Shown here: positions 7,641-22,037 of the stretch, piece by piece
Position numbering within the stretch: the stretch's first letter is position 1
Layout of the letters: each line of letters opens with the position of its first letter
Assembly: GCF_013450295.1 (NCBI RefSeq)
Contig: NZ_SKBR01000003.1
Location: forward strand, 186,001 to 250,000
Direction of reading: 5' to 3'
DNA length: 64,000 bases
DNA from: Streptomyces sp. AJS327
GTDB taxonomy: Bacteria > Actinomycetota > Actinomycetes > Streptomycetales > Streptomycetaceae
Notes under the pieces: model-generated
Database searches by the model: none
What the model was told of the DNA's origin: nothing
Seen by the model: the letters and a program-made list of their open reading frames with translations, nothing else
Program-made: the position numbers and the translations under genes

Positions 7641-7696
7641 GGCGACGGCTCCGTAAGGCTCGTTCGTGCGTAACTGCTCAGCGTTCCACATCATGC

Positions 7697-7708
7697 TACC
7701 CGCCGGTA
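7697..7708. promoter_or_regulatory. Possible operator upstream of the acyl-CoA dehydrogenase
   Basis: TACCCGCCGGTA is an imperfect palindrome (TACC/GGTA arms) 57 bp upstream of the dehydrogenase start. It resembles short operators of fatty-acid regulators only in a general way; no regulator is assigned. Confidence 0.3.
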
Positions 7709-7745
7709 ATAAGAAGCAACCCCTCATCGCCGGTCTGTGACTCGT

Positions 7746-7751
7746 TACTCT
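7746..7751 (+). promoter_or_regulatory. -10 element for a probable leaderless sseB-like mRNA
   Basis: TACTCT fits the TAnnnT -10 pattern and ends seven bases before the ATG at 7759. There is no Shine-Dalgarno sequence between, which suggests transcription starts at or next to the start codon. Confidence 0.45.
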
Positions 7752-7758
7752 TTCCCGC

Positions 7759-8271
7759 ATGTACGGCTATGACCAGACGGCCTCCGCGGGACACGGCTAC
7801 CCCCACGCCGGTCACCCCGGCCACCCCGGGCAACAGCAGTACACCGCACCCCACGGGCCCCCGCCCCCGCACTACGGGCAACCGCCGCAGCAGCCGCTCT
7901 ACCCCGAGCCCTCGCCACCCTCCCTCCAGGAGGCGGTGCGGGCCTTCACCACCGGCACCATGACGGCCGAGGACTTCCAGGGCGTCTTCTCCACCGCGAA
8001 GGTGTACTGCCCGCGCGGTGAGACCCCCGGGTTCCTGGCGCTGCACAACACCCAGCAGCCGGTGATCCCCATGTTCAGCACCCTCAAGGAGCTGCGGGGC
8101 TACGCGGGCAAGGAGTCCCGGTACTTCGTGATCACCGGCGCCGAGGTGCTGGACCTCCTGCCCTCGGGGTACGGCTTCGTACTGGACATGGAGGGTGAGC
8201 ACCGCGTGGTCTTCGACGCCAAGGCCGTCGAGGAGATGGTCGACTTCGCCATGCGCCGGATGTACGGCTGA
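7759..8271 (+). CDS. SseB-like domain protein
   Basis: A 170-residue cytoplasmic protein. Residues 1-55 are a disordered Gly/His/Pro/Gln-rich segment; residues 55-170 form an SseB N-terminal-type domain ([20 protein letters not shown], then [21 protein letters not shown] and a final [13 protein letters not shown]). The SseB family name comes from enhanced serine sensitivity in E. coli, but the function of actinobacterial members is not established; they often occur near secretion or housekeeping genes. No ribosome-binding site precedes the ATG, consistent with a leaderless message. It is divergent from the acyl-CoA dehydrogenase and convergent with the HxlR gene. Confidence 0.8.
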
Positions 8272-8484
8272 CCCGCGCGCCCACGACCAGCGCAGCCACC
8301 CCGGCCACCGCGACCGCCCCGGGCCTCAGCCCCCGAGACCGCCGCGATCCGCACCCCCTGACGGCCACCGTGAGGGCCGTGATCCCCGCGGACGACACCG
8401 TCACCCCGTCCGTCTGATCGCCCGCGGCGCCTGAGGCGCTCTGGCCGCCCGGCTCACCGGCTCGGCACCGCGTCCCGCCCCTGA

Positions 8485-8506
8485 GCGACCCCCTCCGGGA
8501 GGTCGC
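8485..8506. terminator. Hairpin between convergent sseB-like and hxlR genes
   Basis: GCGACC (8485-8490) and GGTCGC (8501-8506) pair, and the ten bases between can extend the stem (CCCTCC with GGGA/GG). It lies 12 bp past the regulator's stop codon. Confidence 0.5.
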
Positions 8507-8517
8507 GAGGGGTCAGT

Positions 8518-8892
8518 TCAGTCGCGGAACTCCTCCGGGCATCCGGAACCGCCCTGCGGCAGGTGCCCCTCGGCCCAGCGGGTCAGCTCGACCATCGCCG
8601 GGCGGAGCGCGGCTCCGGCCTCGGTGAGGGTGTAGTGCACCCGCAGCGGGGGGCCGTCCTCGACCCGGCGGGCGACCAGGCCGAGCGCGCCCAGCTCGGA
8701 GAGCCGGCCGGACAGCATGCGCTCACTGATCCCGGGGACGGCGCGGCGCAGCTCGGTGAAGTGTCCCGGGCCGTTCATCAGCGCGGCGAGGATCAGGCCC
8801 GTCCAGCGCTTGCCGAGCAGCTGGAAGACACGGGTGATGTCGGCCGTCGGCTCCGTGCAGATCGTCCCCTCGCCCGGCGTGGACTCTGACAT
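8518..8892 (-). CDS. HxlR-family transcriptional regulator
   Basis: A 124-residue winged-helix regulator of the HxlR/YodB/QorR type. The HTH spans roughly residues 20-85 (FQLLGKRWTGLILAALMNGP, then HFTELRRAVPGISERMLSGR), followed by the family wing RVHYTLTEAGAALRPAM. One cysteine near the N-terminus (ICTEP) is where redox- or quinone-sensing family members carry their reactive cysteine. The start MSESTPG has GGAAGGGGG upstream. It is divergent from the azoreductase gene across 148 bp, so it most likely represses that gene, and perhaps itself, until an electrophile or diamide-like stress is met. Confidence 0.92.
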   Translation of the reverse strand: MSESTPGEGTICTEPTADITRVFQLLGKRWTGLILAALMNGPGHFTELRRAVPGISERMLSGRLSELGALGLVARRVEDGPPLRVHYTLTEAGAALRPAMVELTRWAEGHLPQGGSGCPEEFRD

Positions 8893-8970
8893 CGGACCCC
8901 CTTCCCGCGTCGGCTGCCGTGGCCCCCTCATCGCGCCAGGGTACTACCCCGGAAGCAGGAGATGAAAAAA

Positions 8971-9033
8971 AGTAAGCAGCTGTGCTATTAATAGTCACGT
9001 ACGTCAGCACACCTACTTATGCGCTACAAGGAG
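8971..9033 (+). promoter_or_regulatory. Divergent hxlR/azoR control region
   Basis: This AT-rich island stands out in GC-rich DNA. It holds AGTAAG (8971-8976) and CTACTTA (9013-9019), which form a loose inverted pair like HxlR half-sites, the palindromes TATTAATA (8986-8993) and ACGTACGT (8997-9004), and the ribosome-binding site AAGGAG (9028-9033) seven bases before the azoreductase ATG. The layout fits repression of azoR by the adjacent regulator. Confidence 0.55.
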
Positions 9034-9040
9034 TCTCCGC

Positions 9041-9691
9041 ATGGCCACGCTGCTGCACCTGGACGCGTCCCTCTTCTCCCGCGAGGGGTCCGTCTCCCGC
9101 GACGTCACCGCTTCCTTCCGAAACGCGTGGGAGGAGCAGCACCCGGAGGGCACCGTCATATACCGGGACCTGGCCGCCGAGCCGCTGCCGCACCTCGACG
9201 AGACCGTGGCGGTCGCGGGCTTCACCCCGCCCGCGCAGCGCACCCCCGAACAGGAGGCGGCCTTCGCCCCGCGCGAGACGCTCATCCGTGAACTGGAGCG
9301 GGCCGACGCGGTGTTGATCGGCGCGCCGATGTACAACTACACGATCTCCTCGACGCTGAAGGCGTGGCTGGACCACGTGATCGTGGTGGGCCGCACCACC
9401 GCCGCGGCGGAGCGGACGGCCGCCGGTACCCCGACGGTCGTCGTGGCGAGCCGGGGCGGCGGCTACGGGCCGGGCACCCCGCGGGAGAGCTTCGAGTTCG
9501 TGCTGAACTACCTGGGCAAGGTGCTGGGCGAGGAGATGGGGCTGGCGACCGAGTTCATCGTCCCCGAGCTGACCCTGGCCCCCACCACCCCCGGCATGGA
9601 GTCCCTGATCGACCTCGCCGCGCAGTCCCGCGCCGCGGCGCACGAGGCGGCGGGCGAGCGCGGGAAGAGCCTGGCCGCCGAGCTGCGCTGA
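9041..9691 (+). CDS. azoR: FMN-dependent NADH azoreductase / quinone reductase
   Basis: A 216-residue flavodoxin-fold oxidoreductase that uses NADH and FMN to reduce quinones, azo dyes and other electrophiles by two electrons. Family landmarks: the N-terminal phosphate-binding segment LHLDASLFSREGSVSRDV, the flavin motif IGAPMYNYTISSTLKAWLDHV, and the ASRGGGYGPGTP loop. Length matches AzoR (about 200-215). A perfect AAGGAG lies seven bases upstream of the ATG. Divergence from an HxlR regulator is the classic arrangement for quinone/electrophile stress control. A strong terminator follows at 9771. Confidence 0.93.
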   Translation: MATLLHLDASLFSREGSVSRDVTASFRNAWEEQHPEGTVIYRDLAAEPLPHLDETVAVAGFTPPAQRTPEQEAAFAPRETLIRELERADAVLIGAPMYNYTISSTLKAWLDHVIVVGRTTAAAERTAAGTPTVVVASRGGGYGPGTPRESFEFVLNYLGKVLGEEMGLATEFIVPELTLAPTTPGMESLIDLAAQSRAAAHEAAGERGKSLAAELR

Positions 9692-9770
9692 ACAGCCCGG
9701 TATCCCGCCCCGTCCCCGGGTCGGTCCCCCACCCCGGCCTCGGCCAGAGACACCAGCCCGCCCTCCACCG

Positions 9771-9802
9771 AACGGTCCGGACGCGCCCGCGTCCGGACCG
9801 TT
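9771..9802 (+). terminator. azoR hairpin terminator
   Basis: AACGGTCCGGACGC (9771-9784) pairs perfectly with GCGTCCGGACCGTT (9789-9802) around a four-base loop and is followed by TTTC-type sequence. This 14-bp stem is the clearest terminator in the window. Confidence 0.88.
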
Positions 9803-9831
9803 TCGTCGTGCGCGGCTTCGTCGTGCGCGGC
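9802..9831. repeat. Tandem 15-bp duplication
   Basis: TTCGTCGTGCGCGGC is repeated exactly twice, head to tail, immediately after the azoR terminator. Confidence 0.85.
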
Positions 9832-10648
9832 CGCCCCGGACCGTCCTGGGGCACGGAGTCCGGTGTCCGGTAGGCGGAGTCCGGGGCTCCCGTTCTGCGG
9901 GCGTCCGCCCTCTGGGCAACGGGGGCGGCGGACATGTGGAATGGCCTCCCCTCCGCGCGGAACGCGCACCGCGCCACGCCAGCACCCCCGCCACGACGGC
10001 CGGTTGACCGGAAGCGGTGGTTCCCACGGGGTCCCGGCGGGTCCGCGGCGTACGGCGACCGGCGGCGCGGGCTGGCGGCCGGAAGCGCGTCCCGCGCGCG
10101 GGCCCGGGTTGCTGCCCGCCTACTCCCCACCGGGCAGCACCCCGGAGGCCCGTGGCCAGCGGCTGCCCGAACACCTCGGCGCCGTACGGCGGATGGGCCT
10201 GGGCCCGGGCGGCCCGCGCGTCCGCCGACCGGTGCGGCGATCCAGCCAGCGGGGCCGACGGACCATCGGCGGCTGGCAGTCGGTGGGCATCAGTGGGCCA
10301 CCGGTGGGCAGTCCAGGGCGAGACGGTCGGTGGACACCTGGCGCGGGGCTCACACCGTCGGGTGAATCTGCCGTGCGCGGGCATAGTCCGCGGCGGCGCC
10401 CTCACCACCCCTCGGACCTGAGACGCGGTCCACGGCGGGCGGGCCGCGCGGCCCGCCGCGGGCGATCGCGGGCACGTCCGCCCGCTTGCCGGGCACGAGC
10501 GAACTGTGATGGCGTGTCCGGCCTCGGACCGTGTGGCAGCCGTCTGCCGCCGGGGAAGCGGCCCGCGGGGCACTGGACCAGGGATCCACTCCGATTCCGG
10601 GACCGCCTCGGCGTGGGTGACCCCCGTCGTTCGGACTCTGGCACACCC
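9832..10648. other. Gene-poor stretch of about 800 bases
   Basis: Long frames are open on both strands but all give Arg/Pro/Gly-rich translations without domains or ribosome-binding sites. I see no structured RNA and no mobile element. It may be a remnant of deleted genes or simply spacer. Confidence 0.55.
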
Positions 10649-10665
10649 TGGTCTATCCCAGACCA
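10649..10665. promoter_or_regulatory. Small perfect inverted repeat upstream of the 36-residue gene
   Basis: TGGTCT (10649-10654) and AGACCA (10660-10665) flank ATCCC, 25 bp before the start codon of the small zinc protein. It could be an operator or a 5' leader hairpin. Confidence 0.4.
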
Positions 10666-10689
10666 CCGAACGGGATACCGGACAGGACC

Positions 10690-10800
10690 ATGCCCGAAAC
10701 CAAGAAGCCGTCAACCCCCAAGCCGTGCACGCACCCCGGCACGGTGCGCCGTGGTGGCAAGATCTACTGCGAACGCTGCAACCGCCAGCTGTACCTGTAG
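10690..10800 (+). CDS. 36-residue zinc-knuckle microprotein
   Basis: A very short gene that is easy to miss. It encodes MPETKKPSTP, then KPCTHPGTVRRGGKIY, then CERCNRQLYL: a basic N-terminus, a CxH pair and a CxxC pair separated by 14 residues, which is the spacing of a tiny zinc knuckle or treble-clef fragment. An AGGA lies just upstream of the ATG. I recall similar 36-40 residue proteins with the same PCTHPG...CxRCxRQLYL pattern in streptomycetes, but none with a known function. The composition suggests nucleic-acid or ribosome association, as inference only. It stands alone, followed by a hairpin. Confidence 0.72.
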   Translation: MPETKKPSTPKPCTHPGTVRRGGKIYCERCNRQLYL

Positions 10801-10847
10801 CGGACCACCGCCACGCGGCGCGGGCCCCTCGGCTCCGCGTGGGCGGC

Positions 10848-10865
10848 GCGGCCCTCGCGGGCCGC
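10848..10865 (+). terminator. Hairpin after the small zinc protein gene
   Basis: GCGGCCC (10848-10854) and GGGCCGC (10859-10865) pair around a TCGC loop 48 bp beyond the stop codon; flanking GC pairs can extend it. Confidence 0.5.
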
Positions 10866-10891
10866 CCGACGGGCAGCGTCCCCCATTCAAA

Positions 10892-10921
10892 GGCTTATCG
10901 GACGCAACTAGGTGATAAGCC
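10892..10921. promoter_or_regulatory. Inverted repeat upstream of the DUF11 gene
   Basis: GGCTTATC (10892-10899) and GATAAGCC (10914-10921) are perfect complements with a 14-base spacer in a locally AT-richer patch, 136 bp before the DUF11 start. Candidate operator or leader stem. Confidence 0.45.
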
Positions 10922-11056
10922 CTCCTCCCGTGCAGCGCCCGCCCGGCCACACGGAAGAGTCCGGACTGCGAGTGACGATCCGCGGCTCGCCCCGGGCGTC
11001 CGTCGGTACGAGGCGCGGCCCGTGGCGGCCAGCGCTCCTCAGCACCCGGGAGTGAC

Positions 11057-12244
11057 ATGAGGCAGGGAAGACAGCGCGGCAGCACCCGGCAGGCCCCCGG
11101 CGCCCGGGGCGACGGCGTACGGCGGGCGCCGGGGCGCGGCCGCCGCCCGGCTCGGCCGCGCGGCGCGGCCCGGACGGCCGTGGCCCTGGTCGTGGCGGTG
11201 CTGGCGTCCGCCCTCCACCCCGCCGTCGCCGCCGGGCAGCACACGGCCGGCCGGGAGGGCCAGCGGGCCCCGGTCACCGTGGACTTGGCGCTCACCAAGG
11301 AGATCGCCTCGGACGATCCGATCGCCCCGGGGGAGACCTTCGAGTACACGCTGGTCGTCCGGAACACCGAGCGGACGGCCACCGCCACCGGGGTCCGGGT
11401 GACCGACAACCTGCCGGAGACGCTCCGTTACGTACGGGCCCGGGTCCTGCCGCCCGGACGGGCCGAACCGGCGCCGGTGGACTGCCCGGTCGACGGCCGG
11501 CGGGTGCGGTGCCCCGCCCTGGACCAGCTGCACGCCGGGGAGGCCGCGATCTACACCCTGACCGTCCGGCTCGCGCCCTCCTACCGGGGGACGGGCGAGG
11601 ACGTCGAGAACCACGCGACGGTGGAGAGCGACCACCCGGACCCCGACCCCGTCAACAACGGCGATCTGGCGGGGGTGCCCGGCGAGTTCGTGAAGCGGCC
11701 CACGGCCGATCTGGCGGTCACCAAACGGCCCGTCACCGGCGACCGGGTGGCGCCCGGCGAGACCTTCGCCTACGACCTGGCCGTCACCAACAAGGGCCCC
11801 TCGACGGCGCGGACGGTTCGGCTGTCCGACACGCTGCCGCCCGCCCTGGGGTTCGCCGGATCGCGGGACGGCTGCACCGCGCACGGCCAGCGGGTCAGCT
11901 GCCCGCCGCACGGCGAACTGCCGGACGACGGCACCGTCGTGCGGCGCGTCACGGTCCGGCTCGACCCGGGCTACGCCGGGGACGGCGGCGAGATCCTGAA
12001 CCGCGCGACCGCCACCGCCGAGACGCGGGACCCGGACCACTCCAACAACTCGGGCCCGGTGCCCGGCGTCGGACTGCCCGACCGCGCCTGTGACGTCTCG
12101 GAACCCTCCCGGTCGGGACCGAACTCCGCGCGGGTTCCCGGTCGTTGGGACGGCATGCCGGACGCGGCCGAACCGCCTGTCTGCCACGGGGCCCCGGCCC
12201 GCACCGGACCGCACCGCACGGTCGCGCGGGACAGCGCCGGGTGA
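11057..12244 (+). CDS. Secreted protein with two DUF11 repeats
   Basis: A 395-residue exported protein. A long arginine-rich n-region is followed by a hydrophobic core (TAVALVVAVLASALHPAVAA), making a Sec or possibly Tat-type signal peptide. Two DUF11 (Ig-like beta-sandwich) repeats follow, near residues 70-210 and 215-345, each with the signature VxxGxxFxYxLxVxNxGPSxAxxVxxxDxLP and a pair of cysteines (CPVDGRRVRC and CTAHGQRVSC) that may form a disulfide. Each ends with the NxATVxSxxxDPDxxNN motif. No sortase motif or C-terminal membrane anchor is visible. A cell-surface or extracellular structural role is inferred. A hairpin separates it from the convergent P450 gene. Confidence 0.82.
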   Translation: MRQGRQRGSTRQAPGARGDGVRRAPGRGRRPARPRGAARTAVALVVAVLASALHPAVAAGQHTAGREGQRAPVTVDLALTKEIASDDPIAPGETFEYTLVVRNTERTATATGVRVTDNLPETLRYVRARVLPPGRAEPAPVDCPVDGRRVRCPALDQLHAGEAAIYTLTVRLAPSYRGTGEDVENHATVESDHPDPDPVNNGDLAGVPGEFVKRPTADLAVTKRPVTGDRVAPGETFAYDLAVTNKGPSTARTVRLSDTLPPALGFAGSRDGCTAHGQRVSCPPHGELPDDGTVVRRVTVRLDPGYAGDGGEILNRATATAETRDPDHSNNSGPVPGVGLPDRACDVSEPSRSGPNSARVPGRWDGMPDAAEPPVCHGAPARTGPHRTVARDSAG

Positions 12245-12262
12245 CGGGCCGAACGCGCCGGG

Positions 12263-12286
12263 GCGCCCCGGTGGTCACCGGGGCGC
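12263..12286. terminator. Bidirectional terminator between DUF11 and P450 genes
   Basis: GCGCCCCGGT (12263-12272) and ACCGGGGCGC (12277-12286) form a perfect 10-bp stem with a GGTC loop in the 55-bp gap between two convergent genes. Confidence 0.8.
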
Positions 12287-12299
12287 GCGGCCGTCCCCG

Positions 12300-13643
12300 T
12301 CAGCGGGCGGTGACCGTCATGGGCACGTGGTCCGGGCCGGCCATCCCCGCGATCACCTCCTTGACGGTGTGCCCCGGCACCGGGCGCAGCCGCCAGCGTT
12401 GAAACAGCGTCGCCAGGGTGACCAGGATCTCGGCCCAGCTGAAGCTGTCCCCTATGCACTTCCGGCTGCCCGCGCCGAACGGCATGTAGGCCCCCCGCGG
12501 CAACTCCCGCATCCGCTCCGGGACCTGACGCTCGGGGTCGAACCGGTGGGGGTCCGGGTAGTGCTCGGGGTCGTAGTGCAGCGCGTACAGGCTGATCCCC
12601 ACCTCCGTGCCCTCCGGGATGGTGTAGCCGCCGAGGTCCACCGGCTCCAGCGCGCGGCGCATCAGCAGGGTGACCCCGTGCAGCCGGACCACCTCGTCGA
12701 TCACCTGCCGGAGGTAGACCAGCTTCGGCAGGTCGTCGTGGGTGACGGGCCGCCCGCCGAGCACCGTGTCGACCTCCTCCAGCAGCCGCTGCTCCACCTC
12801 GGGGTGACGGCCGACCTCGTGCATGGTCCAGGCGAGCGTGGCCGCGGCGGTGTCGGTACCCGCGACGAGCATCGTCATCAACTCGTCGCGGACCTCCCGG
12901 TCGGTCAGCCCGTCGCCGCTGTCCATGTCCCGCGCCGCGAGCAGCATGGACAGCAGGTCGGGGTGGTCCTCCGGGTCACGGTCGGCCTCCCGGGTGGCGG
13001 TGACCACCTCGTCGAGCACCTTCCGCAGCCGGGCGGCGGCGAGGTCGAACTTGCGGTTCGGGCCCAGCGGCACCCGGTCGAGGATCTTCGGGGAGACCGC
13101 CCGGATCAGCATCATCTTCAGGACGGTCGGCACGTCCCGGCCGATCACCTCCACCGCCGGTTTGCCGATGTCGGTGGAGAACATGCAGGCGGCGAGCGTC
13201 TCGATGGTGTGGCTGCCCATCACCTCCTCCACCGCGAGCCGCTGTCCCGGCTCCCAGGAGTCGGCGAGGGCCTCCGCCTGGCGGGCCATGATGCGGGTGT
13301 AGTCGGCGATCCGCTCGTGGTGGAAGACGGGCTGGATCATGCGGCGGTGCTGCCGGTGCACGTCACCCGTCGCGGTGGCCAGGCCACGGCCGACCAGCGG
13401 CTGCATCCGGTCGAAAAGCCGCCCTTTCTCGAAATAGCGGCCCTTGGTCGCCAGCACCTCGTAGGTCAGCTCGGACGAGGTGGCGAAGCAGATGGGCATG
13501 GTGCCCAGATGGATGCGGACCAGCGGGCCCGCCTCCGGCAGCCCCTTGAGGAAGGCATGCGGTTTGCGCCACAGGGCCGCGGTGTGTCCGAGCACGGGAA
13601 GGTGTCCGGGGGCGCGGGGCAGGTGCTTCAGCGAGGGCGGCAT
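12300..13643 (-). CDS. Cytochrome P450, pentalenene-oxygenase-like
   Basis: A 447-residue cytochrome P450 that would hydroxylate or further oxidise a hydrocarbon using external ferredoxin and reductase. All canonical motifs are present: oxygen-binding I-helix AGTDT at residues 261-265, K-helix ExxR at Glu317-Arg320 (EVVR), and the heme-thiolate loop FGAGSRKCIG with Cys396. The N-terminus (LPRAPGHLPVLGHTAALWRK, GPLVRIHLGT) resembles the CYP183/CYP170 group that oxidises cyclised sesquiterpenes. It is the third gene of a minus-strand operon, 241 bp behind the terpene synthase, so the terpene product is its likely substrate. The ATG at 13643 follows GAGAGGA-type sequence. No ferredoxin gene is nearby. 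Confidence 0.9.
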   Translation of the reverse strand: MPPSLKHLPRAPGHLPVLGHTAALWRKPHAFLKGLPEAGPLVRIHLGTMPICFATSSELTYEVLATKGRYFEKGRLFDRMQPLVGRGLATATGDVHRQHRRMIQPVFHHERIADYTRIMARQAEALADSWEPGQRLAVEEVMGSHTIETLAACMFSTDIGKPAVEVIGRDVPTVLKMMLIRAVSPKILDRVPLGPNRKFDLAAARLRKVLDEVVTATREADRDPEDHPDLLSMLLAARDMDSGDGLTDREVRDELMTMLVAGTDTAAATLAWTMHEVGRHPEVEQRLLEEVDTVLGGRPVTHDDLPKLVYLRQVIDEVVRLHGVTLLMRRALEPVDLGGYTIPEGTEVGISLYALHYDPEHYPDPHRFDPERQVPERMRELPRGAYMPFGAGSRKCIGDSFSWAEILVTLATLFQRWRLRPVPGHTVKEVIAGMAGPDHVPMTVTAR

Positions 13644-13884
13644 TGGGGGGTCCTCTCGGCGTGTGTGGTGCTGGTGCGGATCCTCACCTGTGGTCTCCGG
13701 CGCTCGGTGTGGTCGCGGGACACGCCCCGCGCGGACGCGGGCCTCCCGCACCGAACGCCCGGACCCGGCTGGTGCTGTGTGGAGGGGTGGCGCTCCGGTC
13801 TCCGGTCACGTGGTACCGACGCCCGCGCTGGTGCCCCGTCGGCGCGCTCCGCCTCGACCGGCGGACGGCGCGCGGCGGTTCGCG

Positions 13885-14979
13885 CTACACGGGCGTCCGC
13901 TCGCCGTCCAGCGCGCTCTGCCACCACCAGGTGATGGACGGGATGTCGAGCGGCGCCGGATCGTCGTCGGTCGGGGTGGCGGAGAAGGTGTTCGGCAACG
14001 CGGCCGGATCGTCGGGGGTGGTGTAGCGGATGGAGCTGATGCCCCAGTCCTGTCCCGCGCGGATGAAGGCGTCCAGGCTGTCGAGGTAGCGCCGCAGCCG
14101 CGGGCTGGCCGTGGCCCGCACTCCCGCGCTGACCTCCAGGTAGCGGCAGAGCACCCGGTCCCGCTGGCTGATGGCGGTGACCAGCGCCTCGTGCGCGGAC
14201 AGTCCGTGGTGCCACTCCAGCACCCGCACGATGTTGAGGTAGTAGTCCCCGCTCTTGGCTTCCTTGTGGTGCGAGAAGAGGTCGTTGTCCCAGCAGATGA
14301 CGAAGAACGCCATCTCCTCCAGCGCCCGCACCCGCTCCTGGTCGCCCTCGCCGGAGGGCAGTTCGTAGCCGTACGCGGCCTCCAGCAGGGGCAGCACCAC
14401 CGAGGTGGCCCCGTCGTGCAGGCGCATCACCGTGTAGTCGTCCACCGTCGGCACGGTGCCCGCGCCGCGGTGGGCCGCCTCCCAGGTGACGGCGTAGAAG
14501 TACTCGCGCAGCGCGTGGATCCAGCGGGCCAGCTGGCTGGGCGTGGCCCACTGATCCAGCCGGGCGCGGAGGTCACGTAGCCCGTCGGCCAGCGCGTCCT
14601 CGGGCAGCACCGCGGAGTGGGGAGCCTGCGCGACGCGCAGCAACCGGCCCAGCGGGGTCACGAAGTCCGGGCCGAGACCGCCGTCGACCTCGCTCACCTC
14701 ACAGTGGCCGTCGTCGACGCCGAAGAGCCACAGGACGAAGTCGGCCAGTATCTCCACCACCTCCTCCCGCCCCTCGGGCAGGATCCGGGCGGCAAAGGTG
14801 CCGATGTCGTGGTTGACCAACTGGCCACGGAGCGCCGGGGATCCGATGCGGTACCGCTCGGCCCAGGCGCGGGTGTGCGCGCTGACGGCCTCGTGGTGCG
14901 GGTGGATCGCCGGGCTGAACGGCGTGTAGAGCGGGGGTATTCGCAGCTGTCGCTGGGATCTCACGTCCACCTCGGTCAT
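13885..14979 (-). CDS. Class I terpene synthase
   Basis: A 364-residue class I terpene cyclase that would ionise a prenyl diphosphate, probably farnesyl, and cyclise it. Magnesium motifs: an aspartate-rich motif DDGHCE at residues 89-94 (a DDxxxE variant) and a perfect NSE triad NDLFSHHKE at 232-240. The diphosphate-sensor Arg is probably Arg186 and the C-terminal RY pair is Arg318-Tyr319. Length fits bacterial sesquiterpene synthases (about 330-370). The ATG overlaps the stop of the upstream P450 by one base (TGATG), indicating translational coupling. The product cannot be predicted from sequence. No prenyltransferase is encoded beside it. Confidence 0.92.
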   Translation of the reverse strand: MTEVDVRSQRQLRIPPLYTPFSPAIHPHHEAVSAHTRAWAERYRIGSPALRGQLVNHDIGTFAARILPEGREEVVEILADFVLWLFGVDDGHCEVSEVDGGLGPDFVTPLGRLLRVAQAPHSAVLPEDALADGLRDLRARLDQWATPSQLARWIHALREYFYAVTWEAAHRGAGTVPTVDDYTVMRLHDGATSVVLPLLEAAYGYELPSGEGDQERVRALEEMAFFVICWDNDLFSHHKEAKSGDYYLNIVRVLEWHHGLSAHEALVTAISQRDRVLCRYLEVSAGVRATASPRLRRYLDSLDAFIRAGQDWGISSIRYTTPDDPAALPNTFSATPTDDDPAPLDIPSITWWWQSALDGERTPV

Positions 14980-16493
14980 CAGCTCCACCGCCCGGTCCGG
15001 GTGGCGTTCTTCCGTCGCAGCCAGCCCCGTTGCCGGGGGTCGGCCGCCGTCGACGGTTCGTGCGCGCCGGACGGCGCGGTGGAGGGGGCGGGAGGGGGGG
15101 ATGGGGGAGCGGCCGGCGGAAGCTCCGCCGACTGCCCGGGTACGGACATCGCCGCCTGCCGGACCACGGAGTTCGCGGGCTCCGGCGAGACCCCGACGGG
15201 CTCGCCGGAGGTCCGGCGCGGCGTGAACACGACCGGCAGATGCGTCAGATGGGACGAGAGCCAGGAGTCGTCCCACTCCAGTTCGTCCTCCCCGACCGCG
15301 AGCCGTAGGTCGGGCAGCAGGTGCAGCAGGGCGTCGATGCCTGTCTCGGCGATACCCCGCCCGATGTCCTGCCCGGGGCACTCGTGCGGGCCGCCGCTGA
15401 ACGACAGGTGCGAGCGGTTGCGGTGCACCGGAACGGAGAGGTCGGGGCGGACGGCCGGGTCCGAGTTGCCCGCCAGCAGTCCCAGCAGCAGCAGGTCGCC
15501 CTCGCGGATCTCCTGACCGGCCAGCGTGGTGTCGCCGGTGGCCCAGCGGCCCGGCACCACCGTCATCGGCGGGCTGTCCCACAGCACCTGGTCGAGCGCG
15601 TCGGTCAGGGTCATGCTCGCCCCGGCCAGGTTGGCGCGCAGCCGCCGGTCGGTGAAGGTGACGACGAGCGTGCTCGTGATCAGGTTCGTGGTGGTCGTGT
15701 TCGCTGAGATCAACAGGAACCGCAGGTGCTCCAGGACCTCGTGGTCGGCCAGCCCCTCCTCGTGGAGTATCAGCCAGGAGGTGATGTCCTGGCCCGGCGT
15801 ACCGCGCTTGCGCTCCACCAGCTCCCGCAGCAGCGAGACGATCAGGGTGTTGCTCTCCCCCGCCGAGGCGGTGCCCCGGATCACGTCCTGCACCCAGGTG
15901 ACCAGCTGCGGGCCGTGCTGCTCGGACAGCCCGATCAGCCGGGACATCACCAGCATCGGCAGCTGCGCGGCGAACTGCGAGACCAGGTCGGCGCGGCCGG
16001 TGGTGCCGAACTGCTGCACCAACTGCCCGGTGAAACGGTTCACATAGCGGCGCATGCCGTGCCGGTCGACGCGGCCGATGCTCTGCGTCACCGCGGAGCG
16101 GAGCCGCTTGTGCTCCTCACCGTCGGCGAAGGAGCAGACCGGCTGCCAGGCGGTGACCGGGGCCAGCGGGTGTTCCGGGGTGACCTGGCCCTGCCGCACG
16201 GCGGTCCACAGCCGGGAGTCGCGGGAGAACTTCGAGGGCGTGCGGACCACTTCCAGTACCTCGCGGTGGCCCAGGACCAGCCAGGCGGGAAGGTCCCCGG
16301 GGATACGCACGGGAGCGACCGCGCCGTACTCCCCGCGCAACCGCTCGTAGAGCGCGGCGCGTTCGGAGGCCCCCTCGATCGCGTCGAGCCGGGGCGCTCC
16401 GTGCGCCGGACACCCCGGCGGAGGCGAAGCGGAACCGACGGAGTCGGGCGAGTTGGGGTCTAGCGTCACGATGCCTCCGAGTTGGCAGATCAC
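14979..16493 (-). CDS. CYP157-like cytochrome P450 lacking the ExxR motif
   Basis: A 504-residue P450-fold protein heading the terpene operon. The heme loop is intact (FSGGPHECPG, Cys372), but the K-helix ExxR is replaced by DQVLW (Asp301-Trp305), where the family-wide Arg should be. The I-helix reads SANTTTTN instead of AGxxT. Replacement of ExxR by an E/D-Q-x-L-W sequence is the known hallmark of the streptomycete CYP157 family; the heme-side sequence (GRWATGDTTLAGQEI, LLLLGLLAGNSDP) also looks CYP157-like. A 75-residue Pro/Ala/Ser-rich tail is unusual. The GTG at 16493 is taken as start; a GTG at 16469 after CGGAGG is an alternative. Its single-base overlap with the terpene synthase implies a joint role. 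Confidence 0.88.
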   Translation of the reverse strand: MICQLGGIVTLDPNSPDSVGSASPPPGCPAHGAPRLDAIEGASERAALYERLRGEYGAVAPVRIPGDLPAWLVLGHREVLEVVRTPSKFSRDSRLWTAVRQGQVTPEHPLAPVTAWQPVCSFADGEEHKRLRSAVTQSIGRVDRHGMRRYVNRFTGQLVQQFGTTGRADLVSQFAAQLPMLVMSRLIGLSEQHGPQLVTWVQDVIRGTASAGESNTLIVSLLRELVERKRGTPGQDITSWLILHEEGLADHEVLEHLRFLLISANTTTTNLITSTLVVTFTDRRLRANLAGASMTLTDALDQVLWDSPPMTVVPGRWATGDTTLAGQEIREGDLLLLGLLAGNSDPAVRPDLSVPVHRNRSHLSFSGGPHECPGQDIGRGIAETGIDALLHLLPDLRLAVGEDELEWDDSWLSSHLTHLPVVFTPRRTSGEPVGVSPEPANSVVRQAAMSVPGQSAELPPAAPPSPPPAPSTAPSGAHEPSTAADPRQRGWLRRKNATRTGRWS

Positions 16494-17392
16494 GGTGCGG
16501 CCCTACCCTCCAGGGCGGGCGGCAGCCACGGCACACCCCCGAGCCTCCCACCGTCCCGCGTCCGGAACGGCCGGGGCGGCGCAACCGGAGGCCGACCTGA
16601 CCGGAGACAGCATAGGTCAGCCATTCGTGTAGCGCCTGCGGAGTCACGGAGCGTCAACTCGCATCGTGGACAGGGGAGTAGGGGATCCTCCGTCAACTCC
16701 GACGCGGGGTGGTCGCCGCCGGTGGCAACCTCGGGGAGGCGCCAGAAACCATCCCTCCCCCCGTTCACGTCCTCCGACACCTCGGGTCGTCACCGGCTCC
16801 GGAACGACCCACCCCAGCACACGGTGACGGACCCCCCGGACACTCCGCTTCCGCACGGCTCCCCCACGGGTCCGGAGGCCCCGCCACACACGCCCCACAC
16901 ACGCCCCACGGGCGTAACGGAACGCGAACGAGGGGTCGTCCGGGCGCACCGGCAGGGCTTGGGACCGGGCCCGCGCGCTCCGGCGGACGCGCCCGTGACG
17001 CGGTGACGGGGCGTTCGGAATTCGTCCCTCCGCCTCCGGTGGAGGGTGGCCGGAACACCACCGGTACGTGCTCATCTTGTGTGTGACGTGAAAACTTCAT
17101 GTGCCATGGGGGACTTGGGTGTGATACAGGCACCTCGTCACAGAACCACCGGTCCCCGCGAGCCCCAACTGGACCCATGAGTAACGGCGTTCACGTCGCA
17201 CGGGGCGACGCGACACCCGGGGCGACGGCCGGGCCGGAGCGCCCGTCCGGCGGAGGCACCGGAACGGGCGGCACGGCCGTGGAACGCCAGTTGTGACGTA
17301 CGCCCGGTGGTCCCGTACAACCCCGGCGGGGTGGGAGAGGTCATAGGGACGAACGTCTGGACACCCAACAGTCCCCCCACAGGAGGCAGTTC
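16494..17392. other. Long upstream region of the terpene operon and the FG-GAP gene
   Basis: About 900 bases between divergent genes. A duplicated ACACACGCCCC lies near 16882-16905. An AT-richer patch around 17070-17125 carries the inverted repeat ACGTGAA-AAC-TTCATGT (17086-17102, one mismatch) and probably holds a promoter. A 39-codon frame (17177-17296) is open but has no ribosome-binding site and no family resemblance. No regulator gene is encoded beside the terpene operon. Confidence 0.5.
17086..17102. promoter_or_regulatory. Candidate operator upstream of the FG-GAP gene
   Basis: ACGTGAA and TTCATGT flank AAC, a 17-bp near-palindrome with one mismatch in an AT-richer island. No binding protein can be named. 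Confidence 0.35.
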
Positions 17393-18829
17393 GTGCGTAA
17401 ACGCACTACCCGTCTGCTCATCTCGACGGCCGCCGCGCTGGCCATCACCGGTGCCGTGCCGGTCGCCTGGGCGAACATCGACACCGGGGCCCAGGCCGCG
17501 GCCTGCGAGCCGAGCGACGCCAAGCCCGGTGCCGTCACCCCACGGGTGGACTTCGACAACGACGGCAAGGCCGACCTGCTGACCACCGCCCCCGACGGCA
17601 CCATCGACGGCAAGGAGAAGGCGGGCTACCTCACCGTCGTCTACGGCTCCGCCGACGGCGCCGACCTGGAGCGGACGCAGCAGATCAGCCAGGACAACTT
17701 CGGGCTGCCCGGGGCGAAGGAGAACAACCGCTTCGGCACCCGCACCGCCGCTCGCGACCTGAACGGCGACGGCTACACCGACCTCGCCGCCCACTCCCAC
17801 CTCGGCGGCACCGACGGCGAGGGCACCCTCACCATCATCTGGGGTTCGCCGGAGGGCCTGGTCGAGGCCACCACCGTGCAGACCGACCTCGGCGGCGCCG
17901 GGCTCGCCGCCGGCGACTTCGACGGGGACGGCAACGCCGACCTGATCGCGGACGTCCGCGAGGAGAAGGGCCTGCTCAAGGGCCCGTTCACGGACGACGG
18001 CGCCCCGGCGGGCACCGGCGCCGTCCCGGGCCCGGGCTTCACCGACACCGAGGTCACCGACGTCATCGCCGGGGACATGACCGGGGACGGCGTGGACGAC
18101 CTGGTCAGCTTCGGCCGCTTCCAGAACAACGGCGAGTCCGCGATCTTCAGCGAGGGCGGCCCGGACGGCCTGACCGAGTCCGACGTCAAGATGCCCTCCG
18201 GCTCCACCGGCGCCATCGGCGACGTGGACAAGGACGGCTACGGCGACCTCGTCTTCCGCCTCTACCCGAACGGGGACGCGGAGGAGTTCGCCGGGGTCGT
18301 GCAGGTGCTGCACGGCTCGAAGTCCGGACCGGACCTCGACCGTGAGTCGCCCGAGTTCGTGCAGGGCTCGGACGGCGTGCCCGGCGCCAAGGAGGACGGC
18401 GACCAGTTCGGCGCCTCCATCGACGTCGGTGACGTGACCGGCGACGGCTACGCCGACGTGGCCGTCGGCTCCCCCGGCGAGAATGTGCGCGGCGCCGACG
18501 GCGCCGGAACCACCGTGCTGCTGCGCGGCGGCTGCTCCGGCGTGACCGGCAAGGACTCCGAAGCCCTCGACCAGAGCACCCCGGACGTCCCGGGCGCGCT
18601 GGAGGCCGAGGACCGGTTCGGCACGACCGTGCGGCTGCTCGACATGGACGGCGACGGCAAGCAGGACATGGCCGTCGGCTCCCCCGGCGAGAACGACGGT
18701 GACGGCGCCGCCTGGGTCGTCCCCGGGACGGCCGACGGGCTGAGCGGCCCCGGCACCACGTCCTTCGGGCCCGGTGACCTGAACGCCCCGCCCGCCAAGG
18801 CCCGCCTCGGGCAGGACATGGCCCGCTGA
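17393..18829 (+). CDS. Secreted FG-GAP/VCBS beta-propeller protein
   Basis: A 478-residue secreted protein. The first 30 residues (MRKRTTRLLISTAAALAITG) are a Sec signal peptide. The mature part is an integrin-alpha-like beta-propeller with at least seven calcium-binding DxDxDG loops, for example DFDNDGKAD, DLNGDGYTD, DFDGDGNAD, DMTGDGVDD, DVDKDGYGD, DVTGDGYAD and DMDGDGKQD, plus GSPGEN turns. Such proteins are common in streptomycete secretomes and are thought to bind ligands or surfaces; no catalytic site is visible. GTG start with a perfect AGGAGG six bases upstream. Two hairpins follow. Confidence 0.9.
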   Translation: MRKRTTRLLISTAAALAITGAVPVAWANIDTGAQAAACEPSDAKPGAVTPRVDFDNDGKADLLTTAPDGTIDGKEKAGYLTVVYGSADGADLERTQQISQDNFGLPGAKENNRFGTRTAARDLNGDGYTDLAAHSHLGGTDGEGTLTIIWGSPEGLVEATTVQTDLGGAGLAAGDFDGDGNADLIADVREEKGLLKGPFTDDGAPAGTGAVPGPGFTDTEVTDVIAGDMTGDGVDDLVSFGRFQNNGESAIFSEGGPDGLTESDVKMPSGSTGAIGDVDKDGYGDLVFRLYPNGDAEEFAGVVQVLHGSKSGPDLDRESPEFVQGSDGVPGAKEDGDQFGASIDVGDVTGDGYADVAVGSPGENVRGADGAGTTVLLRGGCSGVTGKDSEALDQSTPDVPGALEAEDRFGTTVRLLDMDGDGKQDMAVGSPGENDGDGAAWVVPGTADGLSGPGTTSFGPGDLNAPPAKARLGQDMAR

Positions 18830-18979
18830 CCCCGCGCCCCGGACCAGCCCCCGAGCGGGGAGGGCACGGGGCGCCGACGGCCGCCAGCAGACGGCCGAGG
18901 AGAGCCCGGAGCGGGCGCCCACGGCGCCGCGCTCCACCGCACACCCGACGGACCCGCGGGCCCGTCGGGAAGGCCAGCC

Positions 18980-19011
18980 GTTGACGTCCCGTGGTGGGGC
19001 GGGACGTCAAC
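18980..19011 (+). terminator. First hairpin after the FG-GAP gene
   Basis: GTTGACGTCCC (18980-18990) and GGGACGTCAAC (19001-19011) are perfect complements around a ten-base loop. Confidence 0.65.
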
Positions 19012-19020
19012 GCGCCAGCC

Positions 19021-19056
19021 GGGGCCGACCGTTCATCCGCCGGGACGGTCGGCCCC
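19021..19056. terminator. Second hairpin, between FG-GAP and thioesterase genes
   Basis: GGGGCCGACCGT (19021-19032) and ACGGTCGGCCCC (19045-19056) form a perfect 12-bp stem followed by TCTC. Lying between convergent genes, it can stop transcription from both sides. Confidence 0.75.
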
Positions 19057-19065
19057 TCTCATCCG

Positions 19066-19145
19066 CCCACGTTGACTACCGCTGGCCGTCGTTCACCGCC
19101 GCTGACCGTCGCTGACCGTCGTTGACTGCCGTCGGCCGTCGCTGC
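19066..19145. repeat. Degenerate short tandem repeats (GCTGACCGTC-like)
   Basis: About 80 bases consist of imperfect copies of a ten-base unit resembling GCTGACCGTC / GTTGACTGCC. They lie between the second hairpin and the thioesterase stop and have no coding sense. Confidence 0.6.
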
Positions 19146-19180
19146 GAACGGCGGGGCCGTACCACGCGGGAACAGCCGCC

Positions 19181-19993
19181 CTACCCGTCCGAGGACACCA
19201 GACGCCGTACGACCTCGCCCAGCAACTCCCGTGCCTCACCGGACTCGTGGGGGAAGAAGTGCCCCCCGGGGAAGACCCGCACCGCGCAACCGCCTTCGGT
19301 GACCGACTCCCATTCCTCCATCCACCGCACGGGCGCGAGCGGATCGTCCGCACCCGCCAGAACCGTGACCGGACAGCTGAGCGCCCGCCCCGGCCGGTGA
19401 CGGTAGGTCTCCGCGAGTTCGAGGTCCGCGCGGAGGACGGACAGCACCGCCTCCACCATCTCCGCGCTACACGTCCCCTCTTCCGGTAGCCGGAGGAAAC
19501 TCCCGGCCTGGCCGAGCAGTTCGGGAGTCGGCAGCCGGTGCATCGGGGCACGGGGTGGCCAGCGCGGCGGAGGCACCATGCCCGAGACGACCAGCGCCGA
19601 GGGCGGAAGCGCCCCCGTGTCCGCGCCACGCCCGTCAAGTCGCCGCCCGAGTTCGTAGGCGAGCAGCGCGCCCATGCTGTGCCCGTACAGCACGTACGGC
19701 ACATCCAGCAACGGCACCATGACGGCCGCGAGTTCGTCCACCAGCGGAGCCAGCCGCAGCTGCGGCGACTCGGCCACCCGTCGTCCCCGGCCCGGCGGTT
19801 CGACGGCGCACAGCTCCACCTCCGGCCCCAGCCCCCGAGTCCACGGGGCGTAGCTGAGCGCGCCCGCCCCCGCGTGCGGAAGACAGAACAGCCGTACCCG
19901 GGGCGGTGGTTCGGCGTTCAGCCGCCGCCAGGGGAACCAGAGCCGACACGCGGCGGCGTCCGGGTCGTCGGCTGGTACGCGCTCCGTCGGCAT
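19181..19993 (-). CDS. Type II thioesterase (orphan)
   Basis: A 270-residue alpha/beta-hydrolase of the type II thioesterase family, which removes aberrant acyl groups from carrier proteins of polyketide and nonribosomal peptide synthases. The GHSMGA nucleophile elbow places Ser106; Asp216 in GADDPLAP and His245 in GGHFFPHE complete the triad. The family N-terminus RLFCLPHAGAGALSYAPW is intact. The start MPTERVP has GGAGGGGG upstream, somewhat distant. No PKS or NRPS gene occurs in this window, so the enzyme must serve a cluster elsewhere or be a relic of one. It is isolated, flanked by hairpins and an 830-bp gene-free stretch. Confidence 0.9.
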   Translation of the reverse strand: MPTERVPADDPDAAACRLWFPWRRLNAEPPPRVRLFCLPHAGAGALSYAPWTRGLGPEVELCAVEPPGRGRRVAESPQLRLAPLVDELAAVMVPLLDVPYVLYGHSMGALLAYELGRRLDGRGADTGALPPSALVVSGMVPPPRWPPRAPMHRLPTPELLGQAGSFLRLPEEGTCSAEMVEAVLSVLRADLELAETYRHRPGRALSCPVTVLAGADDPLAPVRWMEEWESVTEGGCAVRVFPGGHFFPHESGEARELLGEVVRRLVSSDG

Positions 19994-20825
19994 CACTGCC
20001 CAACCCCCTCCATCGGCTCTCTCCCCCGGCTGCCCGGCTGCCCGGCCAGCGTCCCCGCCACCCGCCTTCCGGCTCTCCGGCTCTCCGGCTCTCCGGCCAG
20101 CGTCCCGGCCCGCTGCTTTTCCGGGTGCCCCTTCCAGCTCTACCCCGCCGGATCCGGTTCGCCCCACGGCCGCGCCGTCCACTCCCCGCCATGCGCGACG
20201 GACGGCCGGGAGGGAGCGGGGAAGACCAACTGGGCCGGGTAGCGAAGACGGTCAGGACAGTGGGCGACCGGACGGCCGGGCGGAGTGGTCGGGCGGACGG
20301 CCGAGCGGAAGGGCCCGGACCCGGAGGACGAGGAGGGACGGCCGGGCGGAAGGACCGGCTCCGCAGAGCGGCCCCGGAAGGCGGCTGGCGCTGAGGGCGG
20401 CCGGGACGGTTGGTCGTTCGACGAGTGGGGTCATTCAACGAGTGGTCGTTTTCGGCCTTCTCTTCGCACCCGGCACCGCCCCGGGCCGCGCCCCCGCTCG
20501 GTCATCACGAACGGCATCCCGGCCCCACCGCCTCACCCACGACACCGGCCCCACCCCGCCCAGCTCCTCGAACTCACGCCCCAGCACCACCCGTTCCCCG
20601 CCGCTCCGCGCCCCGGGCCGTTCTCCTGCCATCCCTCCGTCCACCCCGTCCGCACGCCACGGCGGTCGTGTCACACCACCCCGGTGCGCCCCCGGCCCCA
20701 CCCGGCGTACGCGGTCTCCGGCGGCGCACTCCCCGGGATCCTCCGCGCACCGGCGGACAGCCGGAACCGGACGCGGGGCGCTGCCGGAGGTGTAGGCGGG
20801 GCGCGTGAGGGCCACGCTGGACACC
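19994..20825. other. Gene-poor region with short tandem repeats
   Basis: This 832-base stretch has no convincing gene. CCGGCTCT is repeated three times at 20069-20092, and a GCCCGGCT/GCCCGGCC pair precedes it. The rest is C-rich on the plus strand between 20460 and 20780, giving long Pro/Arg frames that I regard as spurious. It presumably carries the promoters of both flanking genes. Confidence 0.5.
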
Positions 20826-21941
20826 ATGACCGCTGACTGCCCCCGATCACCGCGGTATCCGTCGCCCACGCCCCCGGCGACCGACGACCAGGTGTCCGCG
20901 TACCGTCGCGCGCTCGGCATCCCCGAGATCGTCGACCTGCATACGCACTTCATGCCGTACCGCGTGCTGCGCAAGGTGTGGGACTACTTCGACACCGCGA
21001 GCGACCGTCTCGGCTTCCCCTGGCCCATCCACTACCGGACGGCGGAAGAGGACCGGGTCGCCCGGCTGCGCGCCATGGACGTGGGCCGCTGGACCGCCCT
21101 CGTCTACCCGCACAAGGCGGATATGGCGGAGTGGCTCACCGACTGGGCGCTGGAATTCGCCGCCCGCCATCCGGACTGCGTTCCGGGCGGCACCTTCTAT
21201 CCGGAGCCCGACGCGGACACACAGGTGGAACGGGCGCTGGGGCGGGGCGCCCGGATATTCAAGGCCCACCTCCAGGTCGGCTCCTACGATCCGCGCGACC
21301 CTCGGCTCGACCCGGTGTGGGGACGGTTGGCCGAGGCCCGCACGCCGGTCGTCTGCCACTGCGGACACGGCCCGGAGACCGGCGAGGCCACCGGCGTCGG
21401 GCCCATCACCGAGGTGCTGCGCCGCCATCCCGACCTGGTGCTCGTCGTCGCCCACCTGGGCATGCCCGACTACACCGCGTTCCTGGACCTCGCGGAGCGC
21501 CACCCGTCCCTCATGTTCGACACCACGATGGTCTTCACCGACTTCACGGAGCGGATCGCGCCCTTCCCACCCCGGGAACGCGCCCGCCTCGCGGAACTCG
21601 GCGAACGGATCGTCCTCGGCACGGACTTCCCGAACATCCCCTACTCCTACGCCCACCAGCTCAGCGCGCTCCACCGGCTGGACCTCGGCGAGGACTGGCT
21701 CCGGGGCGTGCTGTACGAGAACGGCACCCGGCTGCTGGACCAGGCCGAGGCCGCCGCCCTCCGCCCCACCCCGGTCCCCTCTCGTGCGGGCAGTACGGGC
21801 GGTGCGGGCAGTACGGGTGACGCCGGTGACACGGGTGGTACGGACGGCGCGGGCACTACCGGCGGTACCGGCCGTACTGGCAGTAACGGCGGTACGGAGA
21901 TGAGCGGTACGCGGACAGACGGCAGAGGGGGCGGGCGGTAG
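20826..21941 (+). CDS. Amidohydrolase-family (TIM-barrel) hydrolase with Gly/Thr-rich tail
   Basis: A 371-residue protein. Residues 30-315 form an amidohydrolase-related TIM barrel: DLHTHFM gives the HxH metal pair (His39, His41), CHCGHG and VVAHLGMPDY supply further ligands, and LGTDFPNIPY carries the conserved Asp. The family includes decarboxylases and lactonases acting on small acids; the substrate here is unknown. Residues 320-371 are an abrupt low-complexity tail (GSTGGAGSTGDAGDTGG and similar) produced by a 9-bp-periodic DNA repeat. The ATG at 20826 was chosen; an in-frame GTG at 20805 is possible. Sixty-odd bases of spacer separate it from the J-domain-like gene, probably co-transcribed. 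Confidence 0.85.
   Translation: MTADCPRSPRYPSPTPPATDDQVSAYRRALGIPEIVDLHTHFMPYRVLRKVWDYFDTASDRLGFPWPIHYRTAEEDRVARLRAMDVGRWTALVYPHKADMAEWLTDWALEFAARHPDCVPGGTFYPEPDADTQVERALGRGARIFKAHLQVGSYDPRDPRLDPVWGRLAEARTPVVCHCGHGPETGEATGVGPITEVLRRHPDLVLVVAHLGMPDYTAFLDLAERHPSLMFDTTMVFTDFTERIAPFPPRERARLAELGERIVLGTDFPNIPYSYAHQLSALHRLDLGEDWLRGVLYENGTRLLDQAEAAALRPTPVPSRAGSTGGAGSTGDAGDTGGTDGAGTTGGTGRTGSNGGTEMSGTRTDGRGGGR
21783..21898 (+). repeat. Nine-base-periodic repeat encoding the amidohydrolase tail
   Basis: Variations on GGCAGTACG / GGCGGTGCG recur about twelve times in frame and encode Gly-Ser/Gly-Thr tripeptides. The repeat looks like a recent minisatellite-type expansion of the 3' end. Confidence 0.75.
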
Positions 21942-22037
21942 GGGGACGGGCGGGGCCGGAACCGGCGGTACGGGGGTGGGCGGAGGTCCGAGCGGCTGGG
22001 ACGTCGGGGCCCGGCGGGATGCGTAAGGTGGGGACCG

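Follow-up and report, generated by a model that had tools for sequence, protein, structure and literature searches.

We analyzed a 64,000-nucleotide stretch of the Streptomyces sp. AJS327 genome (contig NZ_SKBR01000003.1, positions 186,001 to 250,000; hereafter the window), focusing on a cytochrome P450 gene, CYPA, that lacks the ExxR motif and is followed by a terpene synthase gene and an ordinary P450 gene, CYPB. Our results suggest that the window carries half of a split terpenoid-signalling locus – with CYPA as the ligand-binding input of a terpenoid-responsive G-protein circuit – a reading to which we assign a probability of roughly 0.45. CYPA belongs to a CvnE-type family whose genes mostly stand fifth after cvnA-B-C-D, the four genes of a conservon, which is a G-protein system of actinobacteria. 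Conservon, CYPA, synthase and CYPB form a single locus in some genomes and occur as scattered pairings, mostly within the same genome, in others. From this directly observed gene linkage we infer a receptor role for CYPA.

Linkage of conservon, CYPA, synthase and CYPB

The genes under study in the source genome are the following:

Window 14979..16469, minus strand: CYPA, ExxR-less CYP157/CvnE-like P450 of 496 amino acids (start placed by GGAGG-GTG and relatives)
Window 13885..14979, minus strand: terpene synthase, selina-4(15),7(11)-diene synthase family (NF041565, PF19086)
Window 12300..13643, minus strand: CYPB, ordinary P450 with ExxR (EVVR) (PF00067 at 3e-84, NCBIfam scores)
L141 7655-15094, another contig of the source genome: conservon cvnA-B-C-D without a P450 (identity to the L016 genes)

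CYPA relatives in the Kitasatospora loci L009 and L010 and on the plasmid L016 (59-62% identity) lie directly after cvnA-B-C-D. All 33 loci fetched (L140 of the source genome and the 32 best other places) have a cvnD gene next to the CYPA-like gene, and 50 of the 75 CYPA-like genes extracted, a set chosen partly by synthase, have one within 1.5 kb. The position directly after cvnD is found in L009, L010, L016, L084, L094, L097, L098 and L017; window CYPA does not occupy it, and positions 7001-22000 of the window gave no cvn match. The locus neighbourhood of Streptantibioticus silvisoli (L012) likewise showed no conservon near CYPA. On a CYPA tree built without two rows, L019_6070 and L019_15171, 'conservon near' requires 3 changes, 'CYPB near' 6 and 'any synthase near' 17. 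Because of the 3 versus 17 changes, we read the conservon link as old and the terpene link as gained and lost many times. At L011 (7680-11536) we observed cvnA, cvnB and cvnC with CYPA and no cvnD match; the beginning of a CvnD-like reading frame there runs directly into CYPA.

A synthase search at E<=1e-70 in 295 same-genus genomes returned 28 places in 24 genomes, including the source, and we compared the 27 other neighbourhoods (~15 kb each, two shorter). A conservon accompanies the synthase in 11, CYPA in 9 and both in 4. Complete loci, with conservon, CYPA, synthase and CYPB, occur in four same-genus genomes (L084, L094, L097 and L098) and on the Embleya plasmid L017. The order in L084, L097 and L098 is cvnA-B-C-D-CYPA-TPS-CYPB (TPS, terpene synthase) on a single strand – the window matches the last three genes of this seven-gene row, as does L095 – and L094 and L017 carry the same seven genes with TPS and CYPB inverted. 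Seven further loci read cvnABCD-TPS without CYPA, and the seven genomes concerned have CYPA elsewhere, with CYPB. CYPA and CYPB (at least 48% identity) lie within 7 kb of each other in 20 of the 24 synthase genomes (19 when the weak G279 pair is set aside) versus 0 of the 33 fetched conservon-linked loci. Among three plasmid records with a synthase match, L017 and L020 (at least 56%) have CYPA and CYPB alongside; the third match (37.5%) is distant from that plasmid's CYPA. Four genomes (G046, G173, G234 and G306) each contain two selinadiene-synthase-like genes, and in G046 and G234 one copy stands with a conservon and the other with CYPA and CYPB.

A probable partner of window CYPA lies in the same genome, where a CvnD of 77% identity is encoded on another contig. 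This is the conservon L141, whose genes are 61, 79, 70 and 77% identical to L016 cvnA-D and in the same order; their types (kinase-like CvnA, roadblock CvnB, DUF742 CvnC, GTPase CvnD) are taken from the L016 annotation. In a tree of joined CvnA-D from 65 loci, which omits loci missing a CvnA-D match (such as L110, L132, L135 and L011), L141 branches as sister to the complete-locus conservons L084 and L098 (Shimodaira-Hasegawa approximate likelihood ratio test, SH-aLRT, 95). All three sit in a 26-row clade (support 95). Of its rows, 22 come from 22 synthase genomes: 11 are orphan conservons, 7 adjoin the synthase and 4 belong to complete loci. The remaining rows are L108 and 3 from Kitasatospora; Embleya L017 is placed outside the clade. 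The clade is present in 22 of 24 synthase genomes versus 1 of 24 relatives without the synthase (G001-G024), the single relative being G006 with L108 (Fisher 4e-10, relatedness uncorrected). By its place in this tree, L141 is likely the partner conservon of window CYPA. The first-pass annotation had called CYPA CYP157-like and treated it as an exception to the usual conservon link. The likeness stands, given an ExxR-less, conservon-linked family. The exception does not: the matching conservon is elsewhere in the genome, and related loci unite conservon, P450, synthase and second P450.

Genes that read as dxr, rseP and ispG follow L141 after ~0.5 kb; dxr and ispG are isoprenoid genes of the methylerythritol phosphate (MEP) pathway. 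We considered a general conservon link to dxr and ispG and do not claim it because, among the loci scanned (including L142-L168), this neighbourhood was found in the source genome only.

The terpene link extends to several synthase families. For 25 genomes (G000-G024) we compared terpene synthase places, counted by PF19086 only (99 loci, two-domain genes merged), with the best 150 of 244 CvnD places; the 94 weaker CvnD matches lie outside the comparison. Among these best 150, 9 of 27 CYPA-bearing conservons have a synthase no more than 5 kb away, versus 0 of the 123 others listed (Fisher 6e-8), and at 20 kb the counts are 10 of 27 versus 5 of 123; the 123 include conservons with more distant CvnE P450s. 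Ten adjacent synthases were scored, and one exceeds its cut-off: the 7-epi-alpha-eudesmol synthase of L130. The other nine fall below cut-off, their best models being selinadiene synthase (4), the encapsulin-cargo terpene cyclase NF041168 (2), and eudesmol, cubebol and isoafricanol synthases (1 each). This recurrent linkage, to one synthase above all, supplies a candidate ligand class for CvnE-type P450s. In G009, G011, G013, G022 and G024 a two-domain terpene synthase gene, presumably of the geosmin type, lies ~9-20 kb from a conservon that is not counted as CYPA type (best 150 of 244 CvnD).

Residue patterns in CYPA and CYPB

The motifs of CYPA, numbered from its preferred start, are located in the window as follows:

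15579..15590, minus strand: K-helix QVLW replacing ExxR, residues 294-297 (alignment to solved P450s)
15687..15707, minus strand: I-helix SANTTTT, residues 255-261 (alignment to solved P450s)
15378..15380, minus strand: heme-ligand codon Cys364 (alignment; Cys in 69/69 family members)
14982..15035, minus strand: C-terminal tail, basic and Trp-containing, after a Pro/Ala-rich linker (sequence and family comparison)

The CYPA open reading frame is uninterrupted from 14979 to 16493 on the minus strand. We prefer the GTG at 16469, preceded by GGAGG, to the start at 16493 used in the first-pass annotation; a GTG with a GGAG-type site is readable at the equivalent place in relatives L009, L011 and L012. 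Its sequence identifies CYPA as a P450 (phmmer 1.9e-38 to 7cl9), and Pfam PF00067 gave no match at 1e-3. A model built from a 9-row alignment (mean predicted local distance difference test score, pLDDT, 67) retrieved CYP154C2/C1 in Foldseek (E ~1e-17, template modelling (TM) score 0.68-0.70 by target). Being of moderate quality, it only confirms a P450 fold; an earlier 5-row model (pLDDT 39) was of no use.

Aligned to solved P450s, the ExxR columns of CYPA read Q-V-L-W (E to Q, R to W), preceded by D, and the K-helix contains no ExxR elsewhere. The DQVLW reading of the first-pass annotation thus holds in the aligned columns, as do its I-helix SANTTTT, with Thr258 at the acid position and Thr259 at the alcohol position, and its intact heme-loop Cys372, which is Cys364 from the corrected start. 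It had named two findings that would overturn its view. One, a normal ExxR elsewhere in the helix, was looked for in the same alignment and is absent; the other joined a placement outside CYP157 with a sequencing error at DQVLW, and such an error is ruled out because all 69 family members have W in place of the Arg.

For these counts, CYPA relatives were gathered from plasmids (the best 8 of 60 records with a CYPA match) and other genomes, and aligned in 69 rows including the window; L019_6070, L019_15171 and four outgroup loci (L137-L140) are left out. The heme Cys, like the W, is present in 69 of 69 rows. At the ExxR Glu position, 57 members have Q, 9 retain E, 2 have R and one has D. The commonest K-helix motifs are EQVLW (19), EQSLW (13), EEVMW (8), DQVLW (7) and EQVMW (7), followed by DQVMW (5), EQTLW (3), NRVLW (2) and five singletons. 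At the I-helix acid position 47 of the 69 members have E, and at the alcohol position 34 have T; in the 25 members near CYPB the alcohol is T in 7, G in 7, N in 6 and P in 5. Of 25 aligned CYPB homologues, two have gaps at these sites; the other 23 all have ExxR and Cys, and 22 of them have Thr. Judged from these alignments, CYPB keeps the oxygen-activation set and the CYPA family does not. Since the I-helix residues of CYPA are variable and those of CYPB nearly fixed, the pattern makes catalysis by CYPA less likely.

A basic Trp tail follows a Pro/Ala linker in 56 of 69 members (rule: W and three or more R/K among the last 25 amino acids). We rejected an amphipathic tail helix: the tails are basic and Trp-rich, yet in the 11 tested the hydrophobic moment was no higher than in shuffles.

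The last base of the CYPA stop TGA (14981-14979) is also the first of the synthase ATG (14979-14977), a one-base overlap (TGATG). CYPB probably starts at ATG 13643, 241 nt past the synthase stop, and therefore only the CYPA/synthase junction overlaps; the TGATG overlap read in the first-pass annotation is borne out at that junction. A promoter and terminator scan returned zero sites. By score the synthase is a selina-4(15),7(11)-diene synthase (NF041565 551.7 bits, equivalog cut-off 450; PF19086 also matches), its product being predicted; other homologues found in the genus share 47-62% identity with it. The best NCBIfam models for CYPB are albaflavenone monooxygenase and pentalenene oxygenase, neither of whose cut-offs is reached (NF051859 351.8/700 bits and NF045812 308.8/800 bits, the CYP170 and CYP183 equivalogs). 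The second P450 seen beside the synthase in the first pass is an ordinary ExxR P450.

We observed several divergent arrangements in the family. An eudesmol-linked subgroup (L022, L130 and L132; L023) is divergent, without the tail and with I-helix HTTT; a 7-epi-alpha-eudesmol synthase family gene lies at most 0.1 kb from CYPA in L022, L130 and L132 and 2.3 kb away in L023, and L022 and L023 are located on linear plasmids. L158 (4675-14588) contains two CYPA-like genes (44-45%), both NRVLW, in mirror arrangement with CYPB-like genes and with no synthase or conservon match. The other CYP157-like protein of the source genome (L140, P450 genes ~6871-9308) has DVLH, with Arg replaced by His; its gene has its own conservon upstream and an ordinary P450 gene next. 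Adjoining the silvisoli trio, a P450-like gene without the heme Cys and with no Pfam match (L012 14566-15879) is followed by an ordinary P450 gene.

A proposed terpenoid-responsive circuit and its alternatives

We propose that the synthase would make selinadiene from farnesyl diphosphate (FPP), which CYPB would oxidise. CYPA would bind the terpenoid product, or be set by its own heme or redox state, and as a soluble input would dock on the sensor-less kinase CvnA, switching the CvnB/C/D GTPase module; the cell would thereby read a terpenoid made by itself or a neighbour. The invariant W and Cys, together with the variable I-helix acid and alcohol, may be read as a receptor-like pattern. CvnA of the CYPA-linked loci seems to have no outside domain: in 11 of 12 checked, strong hydrophobic stretches lie within the first 65 residues, one or two in number, with a short loop between. 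Ligand binding by CYPA, its contact with CvnA and the signalling itself are steps that we infer from sequence.

A broader proposition – that a self-made sesquiterpenoid acts as an actinobacterial signal, with an ExxR-less CvnE/CYP157 heme protein as the receptor for a kinase-GTPase module – is in our view rather unlikely as it stands. If true, each such conservon would be paired with a different synthase and read its own terpenoid, and the common, unexplained CYP157 P450s would be receptors, not enzymes. The circuit, if real, would also account for the retention of P450s that lack the most conserved motif of these enzymes, and some of the numerous terpene genes of actinobacteria would gain a function. 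A probable partner conservon has been located in the same genome as the window.

Several observations weigh against the signalling reading. Neither conservon nor CYPA is near the synthase in 11 of 27 neighbourhoods (one of these with CYPB), and no synthase lies within 5 kb of 18 of 27 CYPA-type conservons (best 150 of 244 CvnD), so terpenes cannot be assumed for all of them. CYPA-type genes are widespread: 21 of 25 same-genus genomes give one or more matches at E<=1e-115, and their presence alone therefore says little. The synthase genomes and the 24 relatives were sampled differently. G012 has no conservon placed in the tree (best CvnD 64%), G197 is without the conservon clade and has the most divergent synthase (47%), and the clade was not seen in G066 (82% complete). 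CYPA stands alone on plasmid L018, with CYPB ~54 kb off, and in G064, G052 and G279 it lies beside an out-of-clade conservon with no strong CYPB in the neighbourhoods, the extent of the CYPB search there. CvnA of L082, L094 and L112 (3 of 12) has an extra weak hydrophobic stretch near residue 250, and that of L130 (1 of 12) has no strong one. The dxr genes beside L141 have no counterpart at the other loci scanned, and the tails lack a raised hydrophobic moment. Because the heme Cys is kept and the I-helix Glu often kept, catalysis by CYPA is possible.

The main rival reading follows from that last point: CYPA would be a working monooxygenase or peroxygenase that carries out a second selinane oxidation after CYPB, with the conservon merely controlling the cluster. 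We regard this as a real contender, albeit a tentative one. Two-P450 terpenoid pathways are common, and the invariant heme Cys, the one-base overlap with the synthase and the close CYPB linkage in 20 of 24 synthase genomes all fit such a pathway. They have to be set against the loss of the ExxR Arg in 69 of 69 members and of the Glu in 60 of 69, the mostly replaced I-helix alcohol in the very members linked to an intact CYPB (T in 7 of 25), and the occurrence of the same family behind conservons with no adjoining CYPB. The first-pass annotation had suggested either a role in terpene oxidation or a partnership with the second P450; the variable I-helix makes the oxidation less likely.

Partnership could mean that CYPA serves CYPB or the synthase as an activator or chaperone subunit, in the manner of the P450-derived glycosyltransferase activators. 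The CYPA-CYPB pair does stand apart from synthase and conservon in L142-L144 and L148-L153, and the NCBIfam model for these activators matches CYPA weakly (72.8 bits, cut-off 343). Known activators of this kind have lost the heme Cys, however, which is invariant here, and 45 of the 50 extracted CYPA genes beside a conservon have no CYPB near, so we consider this improbable. Least credible, and disfavoured, is a coincidence in which a common CYP157 gene drifted beside a terpene gene. The abundance of CYPA-type genes noted above would allow it, as would the frequent location of both conservons and terpene genes on the variable arms of chromosomes. Chance of this kind accords poorly with the synthase proximity of 9/27 versus 0/123 (best 150 of 244 CvnD), the CYPA-CYPB pairs in 20/24 genomes versus 0/33 loci, the identical gene order in the window, L084, L095, L097 and L098, and the involvement of several synthase families.

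Comparison with known systems

That CYP157 lacks ExxR and is linked to conservons is already published: PMC3599690 describes CYP157 proteins without the K-helix Arg, with motifs EQSLW/EVLW and conservon-linked genes, and gives the P450 family rule of >40% identity. By alignment, CYPA carries two marks of CYP157, an ExxR-less E/Q-x-x-W K-helix and the heme Cys. For identity it was compared with 13 relatives that have EQSLW, the published CYP157C1 motif, and is 44-48% identical to them. Like CYPA, the CYP157 proteins of S. coelicolor (CYP157C1) and S. avermitilis (CYP157A2/C2) have a K-helix without Arg and keep the heme Cys. Window CYPA differs in reading DQVLW, in lacking the I-helix acid and in standing in a terpene operon with no adjoining conservon.

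The arrangement of CYPA with a synthase was not known to the first-pass annotation, and we likewise found no description of it, with or without a conservon, in the open-access literature; the papers examined named no ligand for a CvnE-type P450. PMC7369989 counts CYP157 as one of the P450 families that gene clusters contain most often, and terpene clusters as the most frequent type with P450s; its section 7 draws no CYP157-terpene link and does not mention conservons.

Among terpene systems, the window synthase scores above the cut-off of the selina-4(15),7(11)-diene synthase model (NF041565). The albaflavenone locus (epi-isozizaene synthase with CYP170A1) and the pentalenene oxygenase CYP183A1 likewise pair a sesquiterpene synthase with an ordinary P450, and the window differs in that CYPB falls under both model cut-offs. 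We know of no CvnE-type P450 in the albaflavenone and pentalenene loci.

The closest parallel to the proposed circuit is the CvnE accessory P450. According to PMC13343842, CvnE and CvnF occur with CvnA proteins devoid of a sensory domain and might act as sensory inputs or as modulators. The paper predicts that CvnE11 touches the HATPase domains of CvnA11; its introduction states that CvnE/CvnF have never been assessed biochemically and names their role an open question. CYPA relatives, like the CvnE P450s described in PMC13343842 and for cvn9-12 in PMC8510531, lie directly after cvnD, whereas window CYPA is separated from its probable conservon, L141, which lies on another contig.

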